From positions 1-64,000 of the forward strand of contig JAKALP010000024.1 in NCBI GenBank assembly GCA_021824175.1: a stretch of 64,000 nt of DNA, written 5' to 3'. Positions 1-8,936 of the stretch are shown here, one piece after another. A program made the position numbers and the translations under genes. This DNA comes from Deltaproteobacteria bacterium (lineage in GTDB: Bacteria > Desulfobacterota > Desulfobacteria > Desulfobacterales > Desulfosarcinaceae). The notes below the pieces were generated by a model. That model searched no databases. It worked only from the letters and a program-made list of their open reading frames with translations, and was not told the origin of the DNA. How positions within the stretch are numbered: position 1 is the first letter of the stretch; each line of letters begins with the position of its first letter.

Positions 1-327
1 TTCCGATCTGATCAAAATATTGACCAGGGGTTGCAGCATCAACCCCGCCCGGCCGGCATTGATGGTTTCCAGGGAAAAAGAAGAAAAGGTGGTCAGAGCC
101 CCCAGATAACCGGTGATCAAAAACAGACGCATCTCCGGTGTAAGCAGGCGCACGCGGTCGGCCAGGGAGAAAAGCAGGCCGATCAGAAAACACCCCACCA
201 AATTCACCGTTAAAGTGCCCCAGGGGAAATTAGGGCCCCAAAGCCGGACCGCCATCAGTCCCACCCCGTAACGGCTGGCCGCGCCCAGGCTGCCGCCGCA
301 CATCACCAGAAGCAATTTGGTCACCAT
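1..327 (-). CDS. crcB: Fluoride ion exporter CrcB/Fluc, partial (C-terminus off the left edge)
   Basis: The first 109 residues are visible, reading left off the window edge; the family is usually about 120-130 residues, so only the end is missing. It begins MVTKLLLVMCGGSLGAASRY and carries the family signatures GGxxGAxxRY (residues 11-20), TLTVNLVGCFLIG and TGYLGALTTFSSFS. These signatures mark the small four-helix dual-topology inner-membrane channel that exports fluoride. The start ATG at 325-327 has GGAG upstream. TunR ends 111 bases upstream on the same strand, so the two could be co-transcribed. I found no fluoride aptamer in the gap 328-438. A fluoride-riboswitch operon lies 1.7 kb further upstream. 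Function is secure by family; its regulation is not visible here. Confidence 0.9.
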   Translation of the reverse strand, partial: MVTKLLLVMCGGSLGAASRYGVGLMAVRLWGPNFPWGTLTVNLVGCFLIGLLFSLADRVRLLTPEMRLFLITGYLGALTTFSSFSLETINAGRAGLMLQPLVNILIRSE

Positions 328-2062: not shown

Positions 2063-2482
2063 TCATCCGCGCACAACGATCACCGTACACGGGGCGTAGC
2101 TCAACACCCGTTTGGCCACCGAGCCCACCAGCCATTTTTGCAGCAGGCTCTCGCCGCGGTGGCCCATGACGATGGCGTCCATCTTGCGCTCTTCGGCCAG
2201 GCGCGCGATCTGCTCGGCCGGATGGCCCACGCGCACCTCGAAATCAACCTTCACCCCTTTGGCGGCGGCCTTGGCCTTCATCTCGGCAAAATGGGATTGG
2301 TAGTAAACCGTGGCATTGTCCAGCACCGCCTGCATCTCCACCGCCACCGGCGGCTCCGGCAGACGGGCCACCGAAACCACCGCCAGGCGGGCGTCATGTT
2401 TTTGCGCCATCTCCAAGCCGAAGGCAAAGGCTTTTTGAGCTTGGCTGGAACCATCATAGGCAACGAGTAGATTAGCGATCAT
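2063..2482 (-). CDS. Universal stress protein, UspA family (ATP-binding type)
   Basis: This single-domain 139-residue Usp has the strand-1 motif LVAYDGS (residues 6-12). Its nucleotide-binding signature is G107-x2-G110-x9-GS (120-121), the ATP-binding subclass. UspA-family proteins act in the cytoplasm as stress-induced regulators. It is the last gene of the fluoride-riboswitch operon. Its ATG overlaps the TGA of the antiporter gene by four bases, so translational coupling is likely. UspA genes are recorded among fluoride-riboswitch-associated genes, which fits its position. Family assignment is certain; what it does in fluoride stress is unknown. Confidence 0.92.
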   Translation of the reverse strand: MIANLLVAYDGSSQAQKAFAFGLEMAQKHDARLAVVSVARLPEPPVAVEMQAVLDNATVYYQSHFAEMKAKAAAKGVKVDFEVRVGHPAEQIARLAEERKMDAIVMGHRGESLLQKWLVGSVAKRVLSYAPCTVIVVRG

Positions 2483-3705
2483 GGTAGAAGTTCTCCTTTG
2501 CTGGAAGTAAAGGCGACCGGTTCCGTCGCCGGCGCAGCGGGGGTTTTCTCAACCTTGCCGCCAAGCAGATGGCGGGGCAGGAAAAAGGCGTTGGCGATAA
2601 GCGTGGGCACCACCGCGCTGCCCACCACGGCCGCGATCAGATAGGAATATTGGGCCGTGTCGATGATCTTGTGGGAAAGTCCGAACAGGGCCGAAATACT
2701 GCCGAAGGTCAAACCGGTGGACATCAACAGGGTGGTGTAGACTCCCTCCTTGCCGGGGCTCTTGAAGAGCCGGGTCACCGGCCAGACCGCCACGCATTTG
2801 CTGGCCATCTTGCCCAGCAGCAGGATAAGAAAAATGGAGAAGCCCGAGGCCAGGGCCGGCACCGAGACGAACGACCCGGCCCGGATGAAGTAAAAGGGAG
2901 TCAGCAAACCGAAGGTGACGGTGCGCAGACGCCGGATCAGCACATGATCCTTGCCCACGGTGCCAGCCAGCACCATGCCGATGACATAGGCCGGCAGAAC
3001 GGACTCGCTTTCGGCCCAACTGGCCAGGGCTCCCAGGCCGAAGAGACAGAGCAGTAAAAACTTGGTCTCCAGCTCAGACGGGCGGTTGCCATATTTTTGA
3101 AAGAAGCGCGGGGTCAGGTGGGGTAGAATGAAAAAGGAGGCCAGGCTGACCGCCGCGAACACCGCGGTTTTCATGGTGAAGGGAGCGAAGATCAATCCCA
3201 GGGCCAGGACCGTGCCCAGATCATTGATAAAGCAGCCAGCCAAGACCACCTTGCCAAAGGTGGTCTTGTTCAATCCGGTCTCCAGCATCACGGCGTAGAC
3301 CACGGCCACCGAAGTGGTGGAGAGCGCCACTCCGGCCAGCCAGCTCGCCCGGCCGTCCCAGCCCAAGCCATAATAGGCCAGGGCCGCGCACCCCAGGAAC
3401 GGGGCCACGAAACCGGCGATGCCCAGGGCCGTGGCCTCTTTCCATTTGAGGGTGAACACCTCGGGGTCCAGTTCGGCGCCGGCCAGAAAGGTGAGCACGA
3501 TGGCGCCGGTGCCAGCCAGGAACTTGATCCACGGCTCGTGCACGCCCAGCACCGTGCCGCTGATCACCGCGCCGATGATCAACTGGGCCACGGTGCCCAC
3601 CACGATTTCGGACAGCGCCGTGGCGACGCGCAACCAGATGGAGAGCATCGTGGCCACCAGCGCCAGCCCCAGCCAGAGGGAGGCCAGAAACCAGGTCTCG
3701 GTCAT
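2479..3705 (-). CDS. CPA2-family cation/proton antiporter (Kef/NhaS3-like membrane domain)
   Basis: This 408-residue, highly hydrophobic protein has about 12 predicted membrane segments and matches the Na+/H+ exchanger (CPA2) fold. It contains AGAELDPEVF and an ND pair in AGCFINDLGTVLALG, typical of ion-site helices. It lacks a C-terminal TrkA-N domain, so it is the short form. The start at 3703-3705 (MTETWFLASL) is chosen because AAAGGAGATCCC precedes it; the ORF is open 21 codons further. It overlaps the AAA+ gene upstream and uspA downstream by 4-bp ATGA junctions. Na+/H+ antiporters recur in fluoride regulons, where exchange of F- or HF-derived protons has been proposed; here that role is inferred from the operon. 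Confidence 0.88.
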   Translation of the reverse strand: MTETWFLASLWLGLALVATMLSIWLRVATALSEIVVGTVAQLIIGAVISGTVLGVHEPWIKFLAGTGAIVLTFLAGAELDPEVFTLKWKEATALGIAGFVAPFLGCAALAYYGLGWDGRASWLAGVALSTTSVAVVYAVMLETGLNKTTFGKVVLAGCFINDLGTVLALGLIFAPFTMKTAVFAAVSLASFFILPHLTPRFFQKYGNRPSELETKFLLLCLFGLGALASWAESESVLPAYVIGMVLAGTVGKDHVLIRRLRTVTFGLLTPFYFIRAGSFVSVPALASGFSIFLILLLGKMASKCVAVWPVTRLFKSPGKEGVYTTLLMSTGLTFGSISALFGLSHKIIDTAQYSYLIAAVVGSAVVPTLIANAFFLPRHLLGGKVEKTPAAPATEPVAFTSSKGELLP

Positions 3706-4493
3706 TGGGATCTCCTTTCGCTTGATTCCCTGATAGGATCGGGTGCTGCCGGATGTTCCAAAAGACATTGCATGCGGACTCCGTCCAAATCCGTGAAGTA
3801 GGTCCTTGCGATCCGGGTAATAATCTCGGCGCGCAGGGACTCCTTAAGCACCCGGCCGTCGCGCCAATAATGGGTGTCCGCCAGCAGTTGCACGGCCATG
3901 ATGATCCACCCCGGCCGGCCATGCGCCATGAGGATCAACGCTGCCAGATCGGCCGGACCCAATGGGTAAGGCAATGGTGCGGCGCGGATGCCATCGTCCA
4001 TGATGCGGCGCAGAAATCGTCCCGAAAGCGGCGGCACCTTTATCTCCTGGAAGCTCAGGTGCATGCCGCGCACCCGCTGGTGATCGCGCGGACCCTCCGC
4101 GTCGGCCGCCAGCAGCACTCCCAGCCCGGTGCCCCGCAAGGCGCGCAAATAGCCTTTAAACTGAGTGCCGGCCTCGCCCAGGTGATCGAGCAGCAGCACC
4201 CCCGGCCGTGCCTCGATGGCGTCGGCCAGGTAGCTGCGAACCAAGCGCGGTGTGCGGCCCTCGACCCGGACTTCCGGATAAACCGCCAACAGCGCCCCGG
4301 TGATATCGGAAAGAGCCTGGGTCCGGCGGCAAAAGCCGCAAGGCCGCCGCTTCTTTTGGATGCCGCGCGCCAAGGCTTGCAACACGGCGCTTTTGCCGCT
4401 GCCGACCGGACCGTAGAGCAAAAGCGTTTGCCCGGCCAATAAGGGATCGGTCAATTGCTCTATAAGCCGCCGCCTGCCGTAGAGCGCGACCAT
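3702..4493 (-). CDS. AAA+/STAND-like P-loop ATPase of unknown role, in fluoride operon
   Basis: This 263-residue protein has Walker A GPVGSGKS (residues 28-35) and a Walker B-like GVLLLDHLGE around 110-120. The layout after it resembles ExeA/TniB-type single-domain AAA ATPases. No transmembrane segment or recognisable partner domain is present. A CxxC pair (CGFC, about residues 56-59) lies shortly after the P-loop. The start at 4491-4493 (MVALYGRRR) is chosen because it begins just after the enolase stop (four-base gap); the open frame extending further lies inside enolase. It overlaps the antiporter start by ATGA. I do not recognise a named family. The tight coupling between enolase and antiporter suggests a role under fluoride stress, which is inference only. 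Confidence 0.7.
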   Translation of the reverse strand: MVALYGRRRLIEQLTDPLLAGQTLLLYGPVGSGKSAVLQALARGIQKKRRPCGFCRRTQALSDITGALLAVYPEVRVEGRTPRLVRSYLADAIEARPGVLLLDHLGEAGTQFKGYLRALRGTGLGVLLAADAEGPRDHQRVRGMHLSFQEIKVPPLSGRFLRRIMDDGIRAAPLPYPLGPADLAALILMAHGRPGWIIMAVQLLADTHYWRDGRVLKESLRAEIITRIARTYFTDLDGVRMQCLLEHPAAPDPIRESSERRSQ

Positions 4494-4497
4494 GACG

Positions 4498-5772
4498 TCA
4501 CCGCAGGGGATTGTTGAATACCGCCGCCGGCCCAAGTTCGGCCTCGATCTCCAGCAGCCGGTTGTACTTGGCGATGCGCTCGCTGCGGCAGGCCGAACCG
4601 GTCTTGATCTGCCCTCCGCCCATGGCCACGGCGAAATCGGCCATGAAGGCATCTTCGGTTTCCCCGGAGCGGTGGGAGATGACGTAGCCCCAGCCGGCCT
4701 TGCGGCACAACGCGATGGCTTCAATGGTTTCGGTCACCGTGCCGATCTGGTTGAGTTTGATCAAAACGGCGTTGGTGCTCTTTTCGCGGATCCCGCGTTG
4801 GATGAACTCCGTGTTGGTGACGTAGTTGTCGTCGCCCACGATCTGGATCTTGGCGCCCAGGGCCGCGGTGTGGTCCCGGAAGCCGTCCCAGTCGTTTTCC
4901 GCCAGACCGTCCTCGATGGAGACGATGGGATACTTCTCGATCCACCGGGCATACAGTTCGGTCATGGCATCGCTGGTTTTGCGGCCTTGCCCGGACTTGG
5001 CCAAGTGGTAGCGCCCATCCTCGTAGAAGGAGCTGGCCGCCGGGTCCAGGGCGATGGCCACCTCCCGGCCGGGCTGAAAGCCGGCGGCGGTGATGGCCTC
5101 CACGATCAATTCACAGGCCTCTTCGTTGCTCTTGAGATTGGGCGCGAAGCCGCCCTCATCGCCCACGGCTGTGGTGTAACCTTTCTGGGCCAATATTTTT
5201 TTAAGCGCATGAAAGGTTTCAGCCCCGTAGCGCAAGGCTTCGGCAAAACTCGGCGCGCCCAGCGGCATGACCATGAACTCCTGGAAATCGACGCTGTTGT
5301 CGGCATGCTTGCCGCCGTTGAGGATGTTCATCATGGGCACCGGCAAGCGCGCGGCGCCGGGCCCACCCAGGTAGGCGTAGAGCGGCAAATCGGCGGCCGT
5401 GGCCGCGGCCCGCGCCACGGCCATGGAGACGCCCAGGGTGGCGTTGGCGCCCAGCTTGCCCTTGTTCGGCGTGCCGTCCAAATCGATCATCAGCCGGTCG
5501 ATGGTGGCCTGATGCGCCGGGTTCAGCCCGACCACCCGGGGCGCGATGCGTTCGTTGACGTTTTTGACCGCCGCCAAAACCCCTTTGCCGTTGTAGCGGT
5601 GCTTGTCGCCGTCGCGCAGCTCGACGGCTTCATTCTCGCCGGTCGAGGCCCCCGAAGGCACCGAAGCCGACATCCGTATACCATTGTCCAAGCCGCAGAA
5701 CACCCGGATGGTCGGGTTGCCGCGCGAATCGAGAATCTCCATGGCATTGATGGTCCGAATGGTTGGCATCAT
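4498..5772 (-). CDS. eno: Enolase (phosphopyruvate hydratase), in fluoride-responsive operon
   Basis: This 424-residue enolase has ILDSRGNPT near the N-terminus, [39 protein letters not shown] and the C-terminal signature [11 protein letters not shown]. It interconverts 2-phosphoglycerate and phosphoenolpyruvate in glycolysis and gluconeogenesis, using two Mg2+. Enolase is classically inhibited by fluoride with phosphate, so placing it downstream of a fluoride riboswitch makes biological sense: extra enzyme could replace inhibited enzyme. Two adjacent ATGs (5767-5772) follow AAAAGGAGCAAAGACG; I took the first. It may be a second, stress-induced copy, which cannot be judged from this window. 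Gaps to its neighbours are 47 and 4 bases. Confidence 0.96.
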
Positions 5773-5819
5773 CGTCTTTGCTCCTTTTGTATGGGTTATC
5801 CGGTTTGCTACATCCCCTG

Positions 5820-6266
5820 TTACCAATTTGGGGCCGTTTTTGCGCCGACCTCCGATAGGCTCTCGGAAATATGGGTCAAGAGGCGTCGCAACCGCGCTAT
5901 GCGGTCATCCAGTTCCTGGGCATCCGCCGGGGTCAACTCGCCATAACCGCGCGTGTGCTTGGATTTGAGCTCATCCAGGGCAATATCCGCGAAGGCCAAA
6001 TTGGTCAGCGCGGCTCTCTGGGCGCTAATCCCGGAGGGATGGCTTTGAATGCCCAATTGCCCCAACATCTCGCGCATCGACCGCCTGAATTCAATGGCCT
6101 CGTGTTTGAAGTGCGCCAGCCTGTCAGGTGCCGTATCGCGAAAATATTTTGGAAAAAGAGACCCAGCATGGGGAGACGACAAGATCTGCTCCGTCTCCAC
6201 GAGCAACTGGTCGATGTACTCGAAGGTGTGCAAAAGATGGCGTTTTTGACTCTCATTGAGATGCAT
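5820..6266 (-). CDS. Uncharacterised helical protein in fluoride operon
   Basis: The 148-residue product ([12 protein letters not shown]...) is predicted almost entirely alpha-helical and charged, with no signal peptide, membrane helix or Cys pair. It ends in a helical stretch rich in Arg and Leu ([11 protein letters not shown]). I do not recognise the family. The start at 6264-6266 is supported by GGAGAT upstream; the ORF is open 33 codons more, but that stretch has shadow-like composition. It sits between the DUF4242 gene and enolase with gaps of 43 and 47 bases, all on the same strand, so it is very likely co-transcribed under the riboswitch. Function unknown. Confidence 0.65.
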
Positions 6267-6309
6267 GGCGCATGGATCTCCGTTTCTGAAAGAGCTGAGC
6301 CGGTACCAG

Positions 6310-6633
6310 CTACATCTCAGAACTGGCCGCGGTGTCCTCTCTTTCTTCCGCTTCCATCTGCTCAAGATACTTTTTGGCCCAGATATCGGGGATGGTCTCC
6401 TCGACTTCCAAGATCGACTCGCAACTGATCTGAAAATCCGCGAAGATCTTCTTCAACGTCTCTTTATTCGGCGCCAGCCACAGACAAAACCTGACCTTTT
6501 CATCCACATTATAATAAGTCCGGAGCCAGGTGGCTGGTTCAAGGTCCACCATCTTGGACCAGTTGCTTTCAACTTCATCCCAGCTCACATCCGGGTCTCT
6601 ATGCACCACCATGTAACTTTTCATTCTTTTCAT
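6310..6633 (-). CDS. DUF4242 family protein (SCO4226 nickel-binding-like)
   Basis: This 107-residue protein matches DUF4242, a small ferredoxin-like alpha/beta fold. Visible elements are YMVVHRDPDVSWDEV, EPATWLRTYYN, CLWLAPNKETLKKIF and a closing VEETIPDIW. One family member, SCO4226 of Streptomyces, has been described as nickel-binding; most are uncharacterised. The ATG at 6631-6633 follows AAAGGAGGCGCC, a strong ribosome site. Gaps are 25 bases to the MFS gene upstream and 43 to the next gene. Its presence in a fluoride-riboswitch operon is not something I know as established, and the role there is unknown. Confidence 0.8.
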   Translation of the reverse strand: MKRMKSYMVVHRDPDVSWDEVESNWSKMVDLEPATWLRTYYNVDEKVRFCLWLAPNKETLKKIFADFQISCESILEVEETIPDIWAKKYLEQMEAEEREDTAASSEM

Positions 6634-6658
6634 TTGGCGCCTCCTTTTTTGCTTCTGT

Positions 6659-7963
6659 TTAATGTCTTGCGGACCTTATACCCCCCATCCATACGGCGCC
6701 CGCGAAGGCCACCACCACCGCATAACCGAACCCCCAGCCCGCGCCGAAGGCCGTCCATAACAAGCCCACCATTAAACTCGACACCAGGTCACCGATGCCG
6801 TTGACCACACCCAGCAGCCCGAAGGCGGTGCCGGCCGTCGCCTCATCGACATAATCCCGCACCGCGGCTCCCTCGAGGGTGTCTTCCCAGGCGATAAACA
6901 CTCCTGCCAAGCCGAAAAACAGCGTCAACCACCCAATGGAGGCCGGCGCCAAGGCAAATCCCAGGAAGGTGAACGCCGCGACACCGTAACCGACAGCCAG
7001 AAAGCGGCTACGGGAAAACCGGTCACTTAAGACGCCGATGGGAAATGAGGCTACCGTGTACACCACATTACGCCAGAGATAGAGCAGCGCGGCTATGCGC
7101 GATGCTTCCAGAAGCCCCATGGGCCCTTCCAAAAGATTGGTGGCGCGCAGGATCATGAGCGTCGGCGCAAAATCGGCCAAACCGAAGATGCCCACCGGCA
7201 CAAGAAAAGAGCGATACGCCTTAGGCATGGCGCCGAGGGTGCGCCAAAATTGTAACCCATGATTGGCCGGTCGCCGTTTCTCCTTGACCAAAAAAAGAAC
7301 GGAGGCCACTGATAACAAGCCGGGAATCAGGGTCAATAGGAAAATGAGGCGATATTCGGGTCCGGGGGCCGTGGTGAACACGGAAAAGATGCTTGTAAAC
7401 GGCTTGAGCACGCCGGGATGATCAGCCGCCAACCCCAGCAGCCAGAAGGCCAGCAGCGGCCCGACCACCGCGCCGATGGTATCGCCGGCCCGATGGAAAC
7501 CAAACGCCTTGCCGCGATGATGCGGGTCCACCGAATCGGCCAACATGGCGTCGCGCAGCGGCCCGCGAATGCCCCGGCCAAGCCAGCCGATGGCCCGTCC
7601 GACCAAAATCAGGGGCCAGGCCAGGGCAAAGCCGAAAATGGCTTTGGCCACGGCCGTCAAGGCATAGCCGGCCACGGTCCAGGCTTTGCGGTGGCCGATC
7701 TTATCGCTATGAAACCCGGCGCCCAGCTTGACGAAGCTGGCCAGGGCGTCCGAGATGCCTTCGATCAACCCCAGCGAAGCGGCGCCGGCGCCGATGGCGC
7801 GCATGAACTGCGGCAATACCGCCGTGGCCATTTCATGGCAAATGTCTCCCAGCAAACTGGTCAGTCCAAAGGCCAGCACATTGCGGTTCAACCAGCCGCC
7901 CAACCCTTTTTCAACCTTGGTCGGCTCTTCGCGCGATGCAACGGGAGCAATTTTCTCGGTCAT
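6659..7963 (-). CDS. Major facilitator superfamily transporter
   Basis: This 434-residue protein has about 12 membrane segments and MFS loop motifs: FHSDKIGHRKAW after TM2 (motif A-like), GRAIGWLGRGIRGPLRDAML after TM4 and GVLSDRFSRSR between the halves. The N-terminus is a 30-residue cytoplasmic tail. The closest pattern I recognise is the group of MFS proteins with GRGIRGPxRDA, whose substrates are mostly undefined. It lies second in the fluoride operon, 45 bases after the HAD gene, with a GTGAGG ribosome site. Whether it exports fluoride, a metal-fluoride complex or something else cannot be read from sequence. Confidence 0.88.
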   Translation of the reverse strand: MTEKIAPVASREEPTKVEKGLGGWLNRNVLAFGLTSLLGDICHEMATAVLPQFMRAIGAGAASLGLIEGISDALASFVKLGAGFHSDKIGHRKAWTVAGYALTAVAKAIFGFALAWPLILVGRAIGWLGRGIRGPLRDAMLADSVDPHHRGKAFGFHRAGDTIGAVVGPLLAFWLLGLAADHPGVLKPFTSIFSVFTTAPGPEYRLIFLLTLIPGLLSVASVLFLVKEKRRPANHGLQFWRTLGAMPKAYRSFLVPVGIFGLADFAPTLMILRATNLLEGPMGLLEASRIAALLYLWRNVVYTVASFPIGVLSDRFSRSRFLAVGYGVAAFTFLGFALAPASIGWLTLFFGLAGVFIAWEDTLEGAAVRDYVDEATAGTAFGLLGVVNGIGDLVSSLMVGLLWTAFGAGWGFGYAVVVAFAGAVWMGGIRSARH

Positions 7964-8008
7964 TGAGCCTCACTTTCCGTTGATCCTACGGTGCTTGGCT
8001 GCCTTTGT

Positions 8009-8488
8009 TCATGCTCTCAGAGTGGCCTTGAGGCGCAGTGGTTTGAGCAACAGGTCCAGGGCCGCCAGGATATCCGGACAGACCACCTTGGCGGCGCCGA
8101 TCAGCTCGGCGGCGCACCCTTCAGGGCCGATGACCACAATGCCCAGGCCGGCCCCACGGACCATGCCGATATCATTGCGACCATTGCCCACTACGGCGGT
8201 TTCGGCGCGGCCCAGGCGGGATAAGAAATCGACTTTGTCCTGGCCGGTCTGAATAAGTTGCAGCCGTAGCGGCAGTCCTTCAAGCTGTTTGGCCGCGCTC
8301 CCGAATGTGTCGGCCGTCAAAACGGTGATGCGCAGCTCGCCCCCGAGCAGCTCCAGTCGCTGGGCAACACCAGGCAGCAGCACGCCGTCGCACGACAATG
8401 TGCCGGTAAAATCCAGAAGCAATTGCGTCAGCCGCAAGGGCTCACTTCCAGGGATCTCCACCTGAATTCCTGTTTGTCTGCCATCCAT
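8009..8488 (-). CDS. HAD-superfamily soluble P-type-ATPase-like phosphatase, first gene of fluoride operon
   Basis: This 159-residue HAD core has motif I DFTGTLS (Asp26; the usual second Asp is Thr, as in P-type ATPases), motif II VLTAD and motif III/IV VVGNGRNDIGM. No membrane or cap domain is present, so it belongs to the small soluble P-ATPase-like HAD group. Members hydrolyse phosphate esters or phosphoanhydrides, Mg2+-dependent; the substrate here is unknown. HAD phosphatases are among the gene types reported behind fluoride riboswitches. The ATG follows AAAAGGAGCACTGAAG. It is the gene immediately downstream of the riboswitch terminator, about 60 bases away. Confidence 0.88.
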   Translation of the reverse strand: MDGRQTGIQVEIPGSEPLRLTQLLLDFTGTLSCDGVLLPGVAQRLELLGGELRITVLTADTFGSAAKQLEGLPLRLQLIQTGQDKVDFLSRLGRAETAVVGNGRNDIGMVRGAGLGIVVIGPEGCAAELIGAAKVVCPDILAALDLLLKPLRLKATLRA

Positions 8489-8551
8489 CTTCAGTGCTCC
8501 TTTTCTCGGGTTTCTTCACTTGCGGTAGGGCCCTGGTCCGCATCAGGCAAT

Positions 8552-8660
8552 AAAAAAACCGCCCACGGGTACTTGTTCATCGAGATCCTACCATACGTAA
8601 TAACAGTCGGTAGGAGTCATCAGCCAAACCCGGGCGGTTATATGGGGGACTCCATCCCCT
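8552..8660 (-). promoter_or_regulatory. Fluoride riboswitch (crcB motif) with overlapping intrinsic terminator
   Basis: Reading the minus strand from 8659, the sequence is GGGGATGG then AGTCCCCC, a short linker, AACCGCCC, and GGCTGATGACTCCTACC (ending near 8608). This is the crcB-motif consensus: P1 helix GGGGA/TCCCC, the AACCGCC strand and the invariant CTGATGACTCCTAC. Further down, ACCC-GT-GGGCGGTT (8559-8572) followed by seven T's can pair with AACCGCCCGGGT of the aptamer (8627-8639). A terminator would thus form when the aptamer is not held by fluoride. A third helix, TCCTACC with GGTAGGA (8584-8590), is possible. It controls the minus-strand operon beginning at 8488. This is the expected ON-switch design: fluoride allows read-through. 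Confidence 0.93.
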
Positions 8661-8791
8661 TTATCTTTATTGATATTTAATAGTAAGCGATTTCACTGTC
8701 AAGCCGGAAACCTTTTATGTCGTACCCCCATACTTCGCAAAAACTTCGTAAAAACTTCAGCACTCACCTCCGTTGAAGTCGTTTCCTTAAC
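8661..8791. other. Intergenic stretch, promoter region of the fluoride operon
   Basis: No gene is visible. The AT-rich part near 8665-8700 lies just upstream of the riboswitch on the minus strand and should hold the operon promoter; I could not assign -35/-10 boxes with confidence. With the riboswitch and the palindromic element it makes up the 449-base gene-free gap 8489-8937. Confidence 0.5.
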
Positions 8792-8936
8792 TAGTGCCTG
8801 ACCGAAAAGCCCATATTTTTCCAAGTTCAAGGCGGAGGCAAAATTTTAACCGCAGGAATACATGGAGTATTTCGAGGATTAAAATTTTGCCCCAACGCAG
8901 AAATTGGGAAAATAGGGGCTTTTCGGTCAGGCACTA
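8792..8936. repeat. 145-bp imperfect palindromic repeat element (MITE-like)
   Basis: The ends are perfect 21-base inverted repeats (8792-8812 and 8916-8936; outermost bases TAGTGCCTGACCGAAAAGCC). Similarity continues inward on both arms through GGCAAAATTTTAA and its complement, so the whole element can fold into one long hairpin. No ORF is inside. Its right end abuts the TAG stop of the metallopeptidase gene. The form is that of a non-autonomous miniature element or large REP-type hairpin; no second copy is in the window. Confidence 0.75.

Follow-up and report, generated by a model that had tools for sequence, protein, structure and literature searches.

A fluoride riboswitch leads an eight-gene cluster with a charge-swapped enolase in a Desulfosarcinaceae genome

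A fluoride riboswitch precedes eight co-directional genes

The stretch of DNA analysed here, referred to as the window, comprises 64,000 nucleotides of contig JAKALP010000024.1 (assembly GCA_021824175.1, a Deltaproteobacteria bacterium of the Desulfosarcinaceae), and our subject is a minus-strand cluster near its start, in which a fluoride riboswitch is followed by eight genes including one for enolase. A sequence-only reading had described the leader as a crcB motif and the cluster as a fluoride stress operon combining export, ion balance and replacement of a poisoned enzyme. The riboswitch-led eight-gene enolase cluster itself is confirmed: the Rfam covariance-model run which that reading had named as a check, carried out on both strands of the window, places an RF01734 match at 8604-8668 on the minus strand with 55.3 bits against a gathering score of 34 (E 1.4e-12), values that rule out a chance match, and the consensus blocks quoted for the leader are present. 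Across the whole 6.07 Mb assembly, this is the single RF01734 match reported. The leader and the genes that follow it, all on the minus strand, are:

8697-8702, minus: putative -35-like hexamer TTGACA, read by eye and below the threshold of the promoter scan
8604-8668, minus: fluoride riboswitch aptamer RF01734 (Rfam, 55.3 bits, cut-off 34)
8550-8639, minus: predicted expression platform, a terminator helix sharing an aptamer arm and then a U run
8009-8488, minus: HAD-like protein, 159 amino acids, motif I D-x-x-G-T as in P-type ATPases (from motifs)
6659-7963, minus: MFS transporter, 434 amino acids (PF07690)
6310-6633, minus: SCO4226-like (DUF4242) protein, 107 amino acids (PF14026)
5820-6266, minus: helical protein, 148 amino acids, no Pfam or NCBIfam match
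4498-5772, minus: enolase of the charge-swapped lineage (R23/E408), 424 amino acids (TIGR01060, 643.5 bits, cut-off 300)
3702-4493, minus: AAA_16 ATPase, 263 amino acids (Pfam)
2479-3705, minus: CPA2-type cation/proton antiporter, 408 amino acids (PF00999); the CPA2-USP pair recurs in relatives
2063-2482, minus: universal stress protein UspA, 139 amino acids (PF00582)

Folding of the 121-nucleotide leader yields an energy of -42.9 kcal/mol (z -3.0), as low in none of 200 shuffles, and predicts a terminator helix whose 5' arm, running from 8639 downwards, is the aptamer's AACCGCCCGGGUUU stretch and whose 3' arm is followed by a U run, bearing out the proposed pairing of the terminator with the aptamer. 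Expression platforms that exclude the folded aptamer are common, albeit not universal, in the RF01734 class, and the overlap predicted here conforms to that pattern. A simple terminator scan does not list this terminator, the loop of which exceeds the permitted length; its 12 sites compare with a shuffle mean of 9.6, which is about chance level. Taken by itself, the aptamer shows no special stability in nearest-neighbour energy (73 of 200 shuffles are as low) in a program that cannot represent pseudoknots, and the known fluoride aptamer fold includes one. Upstream, the TTGACA hexamer is followed after a 17-base spacing by TAAATA (8674-8679), likewise read by eye, and this putative promoter would place the transcription start a few bases ahead of the aptamer; an automatic promoter scan returned no promoter-like sites, the pair falling below its threshold. 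The leader, as far as about position 8543, is 78% identical in the relatives at loci L024, L030 and L026. Directly upstream of the cluster, at 8792-8936, lies an imperfect palindrome of about 150 bases resembling a miniature inverted-repeat transposable element or a repetitive extragenic palindrome, present at about 40 distinct genomic places (79 matches are listed, but many mark a single place twice, once per strand).

The eight genes are separated by gaps of 45, 25, 43, 47 and 4 bases and by two 4-base overlaps, so that the tight same-strand arrangement described earlier holds once gene starts are corrected. The family names hold as well: Pfam assigns MFS_1, SCO4226-like (DUF4242), enolase, AAA_16, Na_H_Exchanger and Usp. 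Pfam finds nothing for the HAD gene, which owes its name to the motifs D26, T58, K85 and GNG[RK]ND, conserved in six rows, and to a sub-threshold P-type ATPase hit (15.2 bits where 62.3 are required).

The enolase is an extra copy from a separate, charge-swapped lineage

The window enolase matches TIGR01060 over its whole length with 643.5 bits, well above the equivalog cut-off of 300. A second enolase, 60% identical to it, is encoded on contig C55 of the same genome, which rules out the riboswitch-associated copy as the cell's sole enolase. Among the matches listed in a scan of named genomes, the best 80 loci were kept. A tree of 85 enolases places the window copy inside a clade of 21 rows with a Shimodaira-Hasegawa-like approximate likelihood-ratio (SH-aLRT) support of 100. 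With 17 rows added later the clade holds 24 of 102 enolases, and in a careful tree of 64 rows, which excludes the very long branches L197 and L198 and 36 further non-clade rows, it receives an ultrafast bootstrap of 100 and an SH-aLRT of 99. By record labels its members, mostly metagenome-assembled, belong to Pseudomonadota, Thermodesulfobacteriota, Spirochaetota, Synergistota, Lentisphaerota, Myxococcota and Acidobacteriota, a spread that, judged from the labels, suggests horizontal transfer, with misbinned contigs as a possible contributor.

Membership of the clade goes together with fluoride riboswitches. A riboswitch is found at the enolase locus in 11 of the 21 clade rows and in one of the 64 others (L162; Fisher p 1.7e-7), a test to be read with the non-independence of related rows and the shortness of several loci in mind. 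Matches to R1, a riboswitch model built in this analysis, were not counted where weak (L124, 18.0 bits; L163, 16.2; L147, 15.7; L099, 14.3). In nine of the 11 riboswitch members the element lies upstream on the same strand; at L103 it directly precedes the enolase gene, and both sites of that locus exceed the Rfam cut-off, while L102 has the order riboswitch, CPA2, UspA, riboswitch, dynamin-like, enolase, AAA. Genome-wide, of the 17 named genomes that encode a clade enolase, 10 have RF01734. Another enolase (E up to 1e-50) occurs in 10 of the 11 riboswitch members and in one of the 10 members without a riboswitch at the locus (p 3.5e-4), a comparison chosen after seeing the data; that one member, L108, has crcB beside its enolase. 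Adding the later rows L177, which has a second enolase, and L178, which has none, changes the latter count to 2 of 12 (p 6.4e-4), neither locus showing a riboswitch in the stretch examined. The lineage thus provides the sole enolase found in some bacteria, while in the fluoride loci of others it is a spare.

The clade is set apart by an inverted pair of charged residues. Position 23 is arginine in 21 of 21 clade rows and glutamate in 64 of 64 others, and position 408 is glutamate in all 20 clade rows that include the site and arginine in all 64 others. In the set of 102, the R/E combination is seen in 23 of 24 clade rows (the last has R, its other site missing at a contig end) and E/R in 77 of 78 others, with L197 (E/A) as the exception; enolases encoded in the same genomes as clade members are E/R in 12 of 13 cases. 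We take R23/E408 to correspond to E20/R414 of human and yeast enolase, on an alignment of the SRGNPT-E and LLRIE motifs and on residue counting. A second pair, presumably R8-E417 in yeast, would fall at positions 11 and 411. Of the 24 clade rows, 21 have M, L, I or F at position 11 and three have Q or H, and none has E or D at position 411, so that the window lineage, compared with canonical enolase, no longer has R and E/D at this pair either. According to one study, E20 and R414 are the residues that allow the antiparallel homodimer (PMC9452966). Because the ion pair mapped to that interface is inverted, we propose that the spare enzyme would form homodimers without mixing, and its subunits may perhaps not combine with those of the housekeeping enolase.

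Twelve catalytic or metal-binding positions (S40, H156, E165, E206, D243, E287, D314, K339, H367, R368, S369 and K390) are the same in the window enolase as in canonical enolases; they are identical in 24 of 24 clade rows, and at each of them at least 75 of the 78 other rows agree. Some of their roles are given in two papers (PMC4667285, PMC6863902). With all twelve unchanged, an active-site signature of fluoride resistance is unsupported.

The gene order can be pieced together from relatives

Of 389 genomes of the order, 77 gave an RF01734 match, which exceeded the cut-off in 70. Surroundings were fetched for 87 of the 91 listed places (80 loci, L014-L093, in 74 genomes), the remainder being the window itself and three weak places (G313, G374, G117); five of the 87 riboswitches score below the gathering score. 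Genes were called by a codon-scored caller together with a search of all frames and named by Pfam, and at 10 of the 87 riboswitches no downstream gene was called. The called operons contain a dynamin-like GTPase in 23 cases, a Na+/H+ exchanger of 490 amino acids in 19, CrcB in 15, CPA2 in 10 and enolase in 3. The dynamin-like GTPase is also the most frequent first called gene (21 of 87; PF00350 in the representative L029, which additionally matches the LeoA and LeoBC models). A translated search finds more enolase than the caller does, at five loci: whole at L020, L026 and L087 and broken at L030 and L053.

The order of genes in the window is pieced together from these relatives, behind the same leader. 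In the same genus, L024 has the leader, a dynamin remnant, HAD, MFS and DUF4242, then CPA2 and UspA, and L030 has the leader, an enolase tail, AAA, CPA2 and UspA; L026 has the leader, a dynamin-like gene, a HAD stub, enolase, CPA2, UspA and CrcB, and L087 the leader, HAD and enolase. Internal, within-gene deletions occur in the operons of L024, L030, L037, L026, L053 and L020, by decay or assembly error; at the junctions in L037 the overlaps measure 13 and 7 bases.

Two of the less familiar partners look fluoride-linked, namely the AAA ATPase and the 148-residue protein. The 148-residue family, which has no Pfam or NCBIfam match, is found in four of the 389 genomes (E up to 1e-5; the window's and three others), all four with RF01734: two members lie beside a riboswitch, one on L202 and one in genome G081, and a further relative is encoded at L162. 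The L202 contig (G217) carries eno, MFS and HAD genes and two copies of the family with no riboswitch on it, and the contig of the G081 relative has no listed RF01734 match. A Protein Data Bank (PDB) sequence search with this family gave nothing convincing (best E 0.35), and the AlphaFold model is a helical bundle with a mean predicted local distance difference test score (pLDDT) of 72.9, not used as evidence of function. The AAA family occurs in two of the 389 genomes (E up to 1e-10), in a fluoride operon both times, and directly follows enolase at L102. Its PDB search returned short ATPase matches, the best-scoring being engineered RecA fusion chains, and its AlphaFold model is poor (mean pLDDT 59.3) and was likewise not used. 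A protein of about 220-265 amino acids with an FLWWFIQG motif was also seen beside fluoride riboswitches or the 148-residue family (L053, L068, L188).

An apparently rearranged stretch separates uspA from crcB

Beyond uspA, towards the contig end, lie three further genes:

1728-2042, plus: TauE/SafE-type exporter gene, fragment holding the N-terminal third, abutting uspA (PF01925)
439-1683, minus: gene with an integrase-like and two Mop (TOBE) domains (domain searches)
1-327, minus: gene for the fluoride exporter CrcB, truncated at its 3' side where the contig stops; start read by eye as 327 (PF02537, 88.4 bits, cut-off 32.9)

The crcB gene lies outside the region covered by the sequence-only reading (2063-8660). 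The DNA that separates uspA and crcB looks rearranged, as is suggested by the end of uspA abutting the tauE truncation. The truncated tauE is divergent to the Mop/integrase-domain gene (439-2042), and L028 and L060 carry the same pair with a tauE of 317-321 amino acids. The contig begins (window 1-9) with TTCCGATCT, which we take to be the end of an Illumina adapter, and the first bases, where crcB is cut, may be non-genomic. A second crcB on contig C52 of the same genome (L180) is 67% identical to the window gene over the available part, with no riboswitch match in the 13 kb around it.

A fluoride-inducible spare enolase and the alternatives

We consider it probable that the cluster is a fluoride-inducible stress operon whose enolase is a dedicated spare, drawn from a separate lineage that appears to move horizontally together with fluoride genes, and forming homodimers that do not mix with the resident enzyme. 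The leader is likely a usual ON switch, in which the fluoride-bound aptamer prevents terminator formation. As cytoplasmic fluoride rises, the aptamer would fold, the overlapping terminator could not form, and polymerase would read through HAD-MFS-DUF4242-hypothetical-eno-AAA-CPA2-uspA as one transcript, perhaps on to crcB. The induced enolase would then top up the enolase step once the housekeeping enzyme is poisoned, to the presumed benefit of the cell, and the inverted pair R23/E408 would favour homodimerisation of the spare over mixing with resident subunits. Of the fluoride stress operon as first proposed, the fluoride leader ahead of a co-directional enolase, HAD, CPA2 and UspA set stands, as does the partial order kept in relatives; no known fluoride exporter is among the eight genes, and export would fall to crcB beyond the rearranged stretch. 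Replacement of a poisoned enzyme has the extra enolase that it requires, whose catalytic residues are nonetheless the usual ones.

Several observations weigh against this reading. The clade copy is the only enolase found in nine of the 10 members without a riboswitch at the locus, which rules out that the inverted lineage is confined to fluoride loci and implies that the inverted pair is a trait of the lineage that predates any fluoride role and did not arise for it; in three of these nine genomes (G390, G394 and G396) a fluoride riboswitch is found elsewhere. Two riboswitch members of the 11, L094 and L104, have the element immediately downstream of eno. L026, from a genome 84% complete, is a riboswitch member for which no second enolase was found, and that of L097 is distant (36% identical). 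Within the order, whole or broken enolase genes occur at only five of 80 riboswitch loci. The Enterobacter-type operons described below use a canonical E/R enolase, so the inversion is not needed. Finally, induction and co-transcription are predictions, and the putative equivalence of R23/E408 to E20/R414 draws on motif alignment and residue counting.

A plainer account is quite possible, if somewhat short of probable: the cluster would simply raise the dose of an ordinary enolase no less sensitive to fluoride, which is the proposal made for the FRM operon of Enterobacter cloacae, with lineage and inversion an accident of capture. The twelve unchanged catalytic and metal positions, the canonical enolase of FRM-type plasmid operons and the single-enolase members of the clade all fit such a dosage effect, which would not predict the strong enrichment of one lineage at fluoride riboswitches in several phyla unless the cassette spreads as a unit. 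The same enrichment, together with clade-specific residues away from the interface (C220, S248, C356, M384 and G386, for example), would be expected if the lineage were intrinsically fluoride-tolerant and induction exchanged a poisoned enzyme for a working one; this we regard as unlikely, given that none of the twelve positions is changed, that S248 is also found in the canonical partners L191 and L192, and that C220 is absent in L178. That the cluster is a decaying remnant appears very improbable: relatives have lost pieces of their operons (L024, L030, L037 and L053 among others) and the window copy sits beside the truncated tauE at 1728-2042, but each of the eight genes in the window has an open frame, Pfam matches span whole domains in six of them, and the HAD gene has its motifs. 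Returning to the fluoride-inducible spare, we extend it only tentatively, and with more doubt than conviction, to a general proposal in which the inverted-interface lineage would be a subunit-insulated spare across phyla, spread horizontally with partners that include the 148-residue protein and the AAA ATPase, neither of them otherwise described, and the dynamin-like GTPase.

The presence of enolase in fluoride operons has so far been put down to a need for additional copies of an enzyme that fluoride inhibits. A single, separable lineage with an inverted interface offers a concrete test of how a spare essential enzyme might be run beside its poisoned counterpart, and the 148-residue helical family, the AAA ATPase and the dynamin-like GTPase are new fluoride-stress candidates.

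Comparison with known systems

Baker et al. (2012) reportedly list riboswitch companions, and partners called new here may be among them. Relative to the crcB motif class, the window RNA has the same aptamer sequence and structure, a terminator overlapping the aptamer and a predicted ON switch (PMC2864571); the RNA itself shows no visible difference, and the downstream gene set alone is unusual. The companions listed in that first description of the motif are mutS, K+ or Cl- transport and formate hydrogen lyase (PMC2864571). A review calls enolase behind fluoride riboswitches frequent (PMC11139923), so the combination in the window is not a new kind. Enolase in a fluoride operon therefore has precedent, and the new element is its lineage, which looks new and is the most unusual feature of the cluster, one that the sequence-only reading had not seen; our literature search found no paper on a 'fluoride-resistant enolase' and none joining fluoride, dynamin and riboswitch.

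The closest described system is the E. cloacae FRM operon, ppaC-uspA-eno-gpmA-crcB-orf5249, which was shown by experiment to be fluoride-induced behind a riboswitch and to give resistance; its proposed logic is to combine export with a stress protein and with additional copies of the enzymes that fluoride inhibits (PMC5533749). On that description, a fluoride riboswitch, an extra enolase, UspA and CrcB are common to both, whereas the eight window genes have no ppaC or gpmA and include instead HAD, MFS, DUF4242, hypothetical, AAA and CPA2 genes; eno and uspA lie behind the riboswitch, and between uspA and crcB (1-327, minus), itself truncated where the contig stops, lie the rearranged stretch and one more gene. 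By analogy the window operon may work like the FRM operon, and we do not file it as FRM-type. Plasmid clusters of the same gene order in Pantoea (L175) and Enterobacter (L176) have R1 matches upstream (33.9 and 22.7 bits); their enolases are canonical E/R ones that share 51% and 55% identity with the window copy, from which it follows that enolase was recruited to fluoride operons at least twice. The crcB-usp-eno cluster on a Methylocella tundrae plasmid (L174), by comparison, consists of these three genes alone, lacking HAD, AAA, MFS and CPA2, yet it has an R1 match of 55.7 bits upstream, and its enolase, which shares 79% identity with the window copy, belongs to the same inverted lineage.

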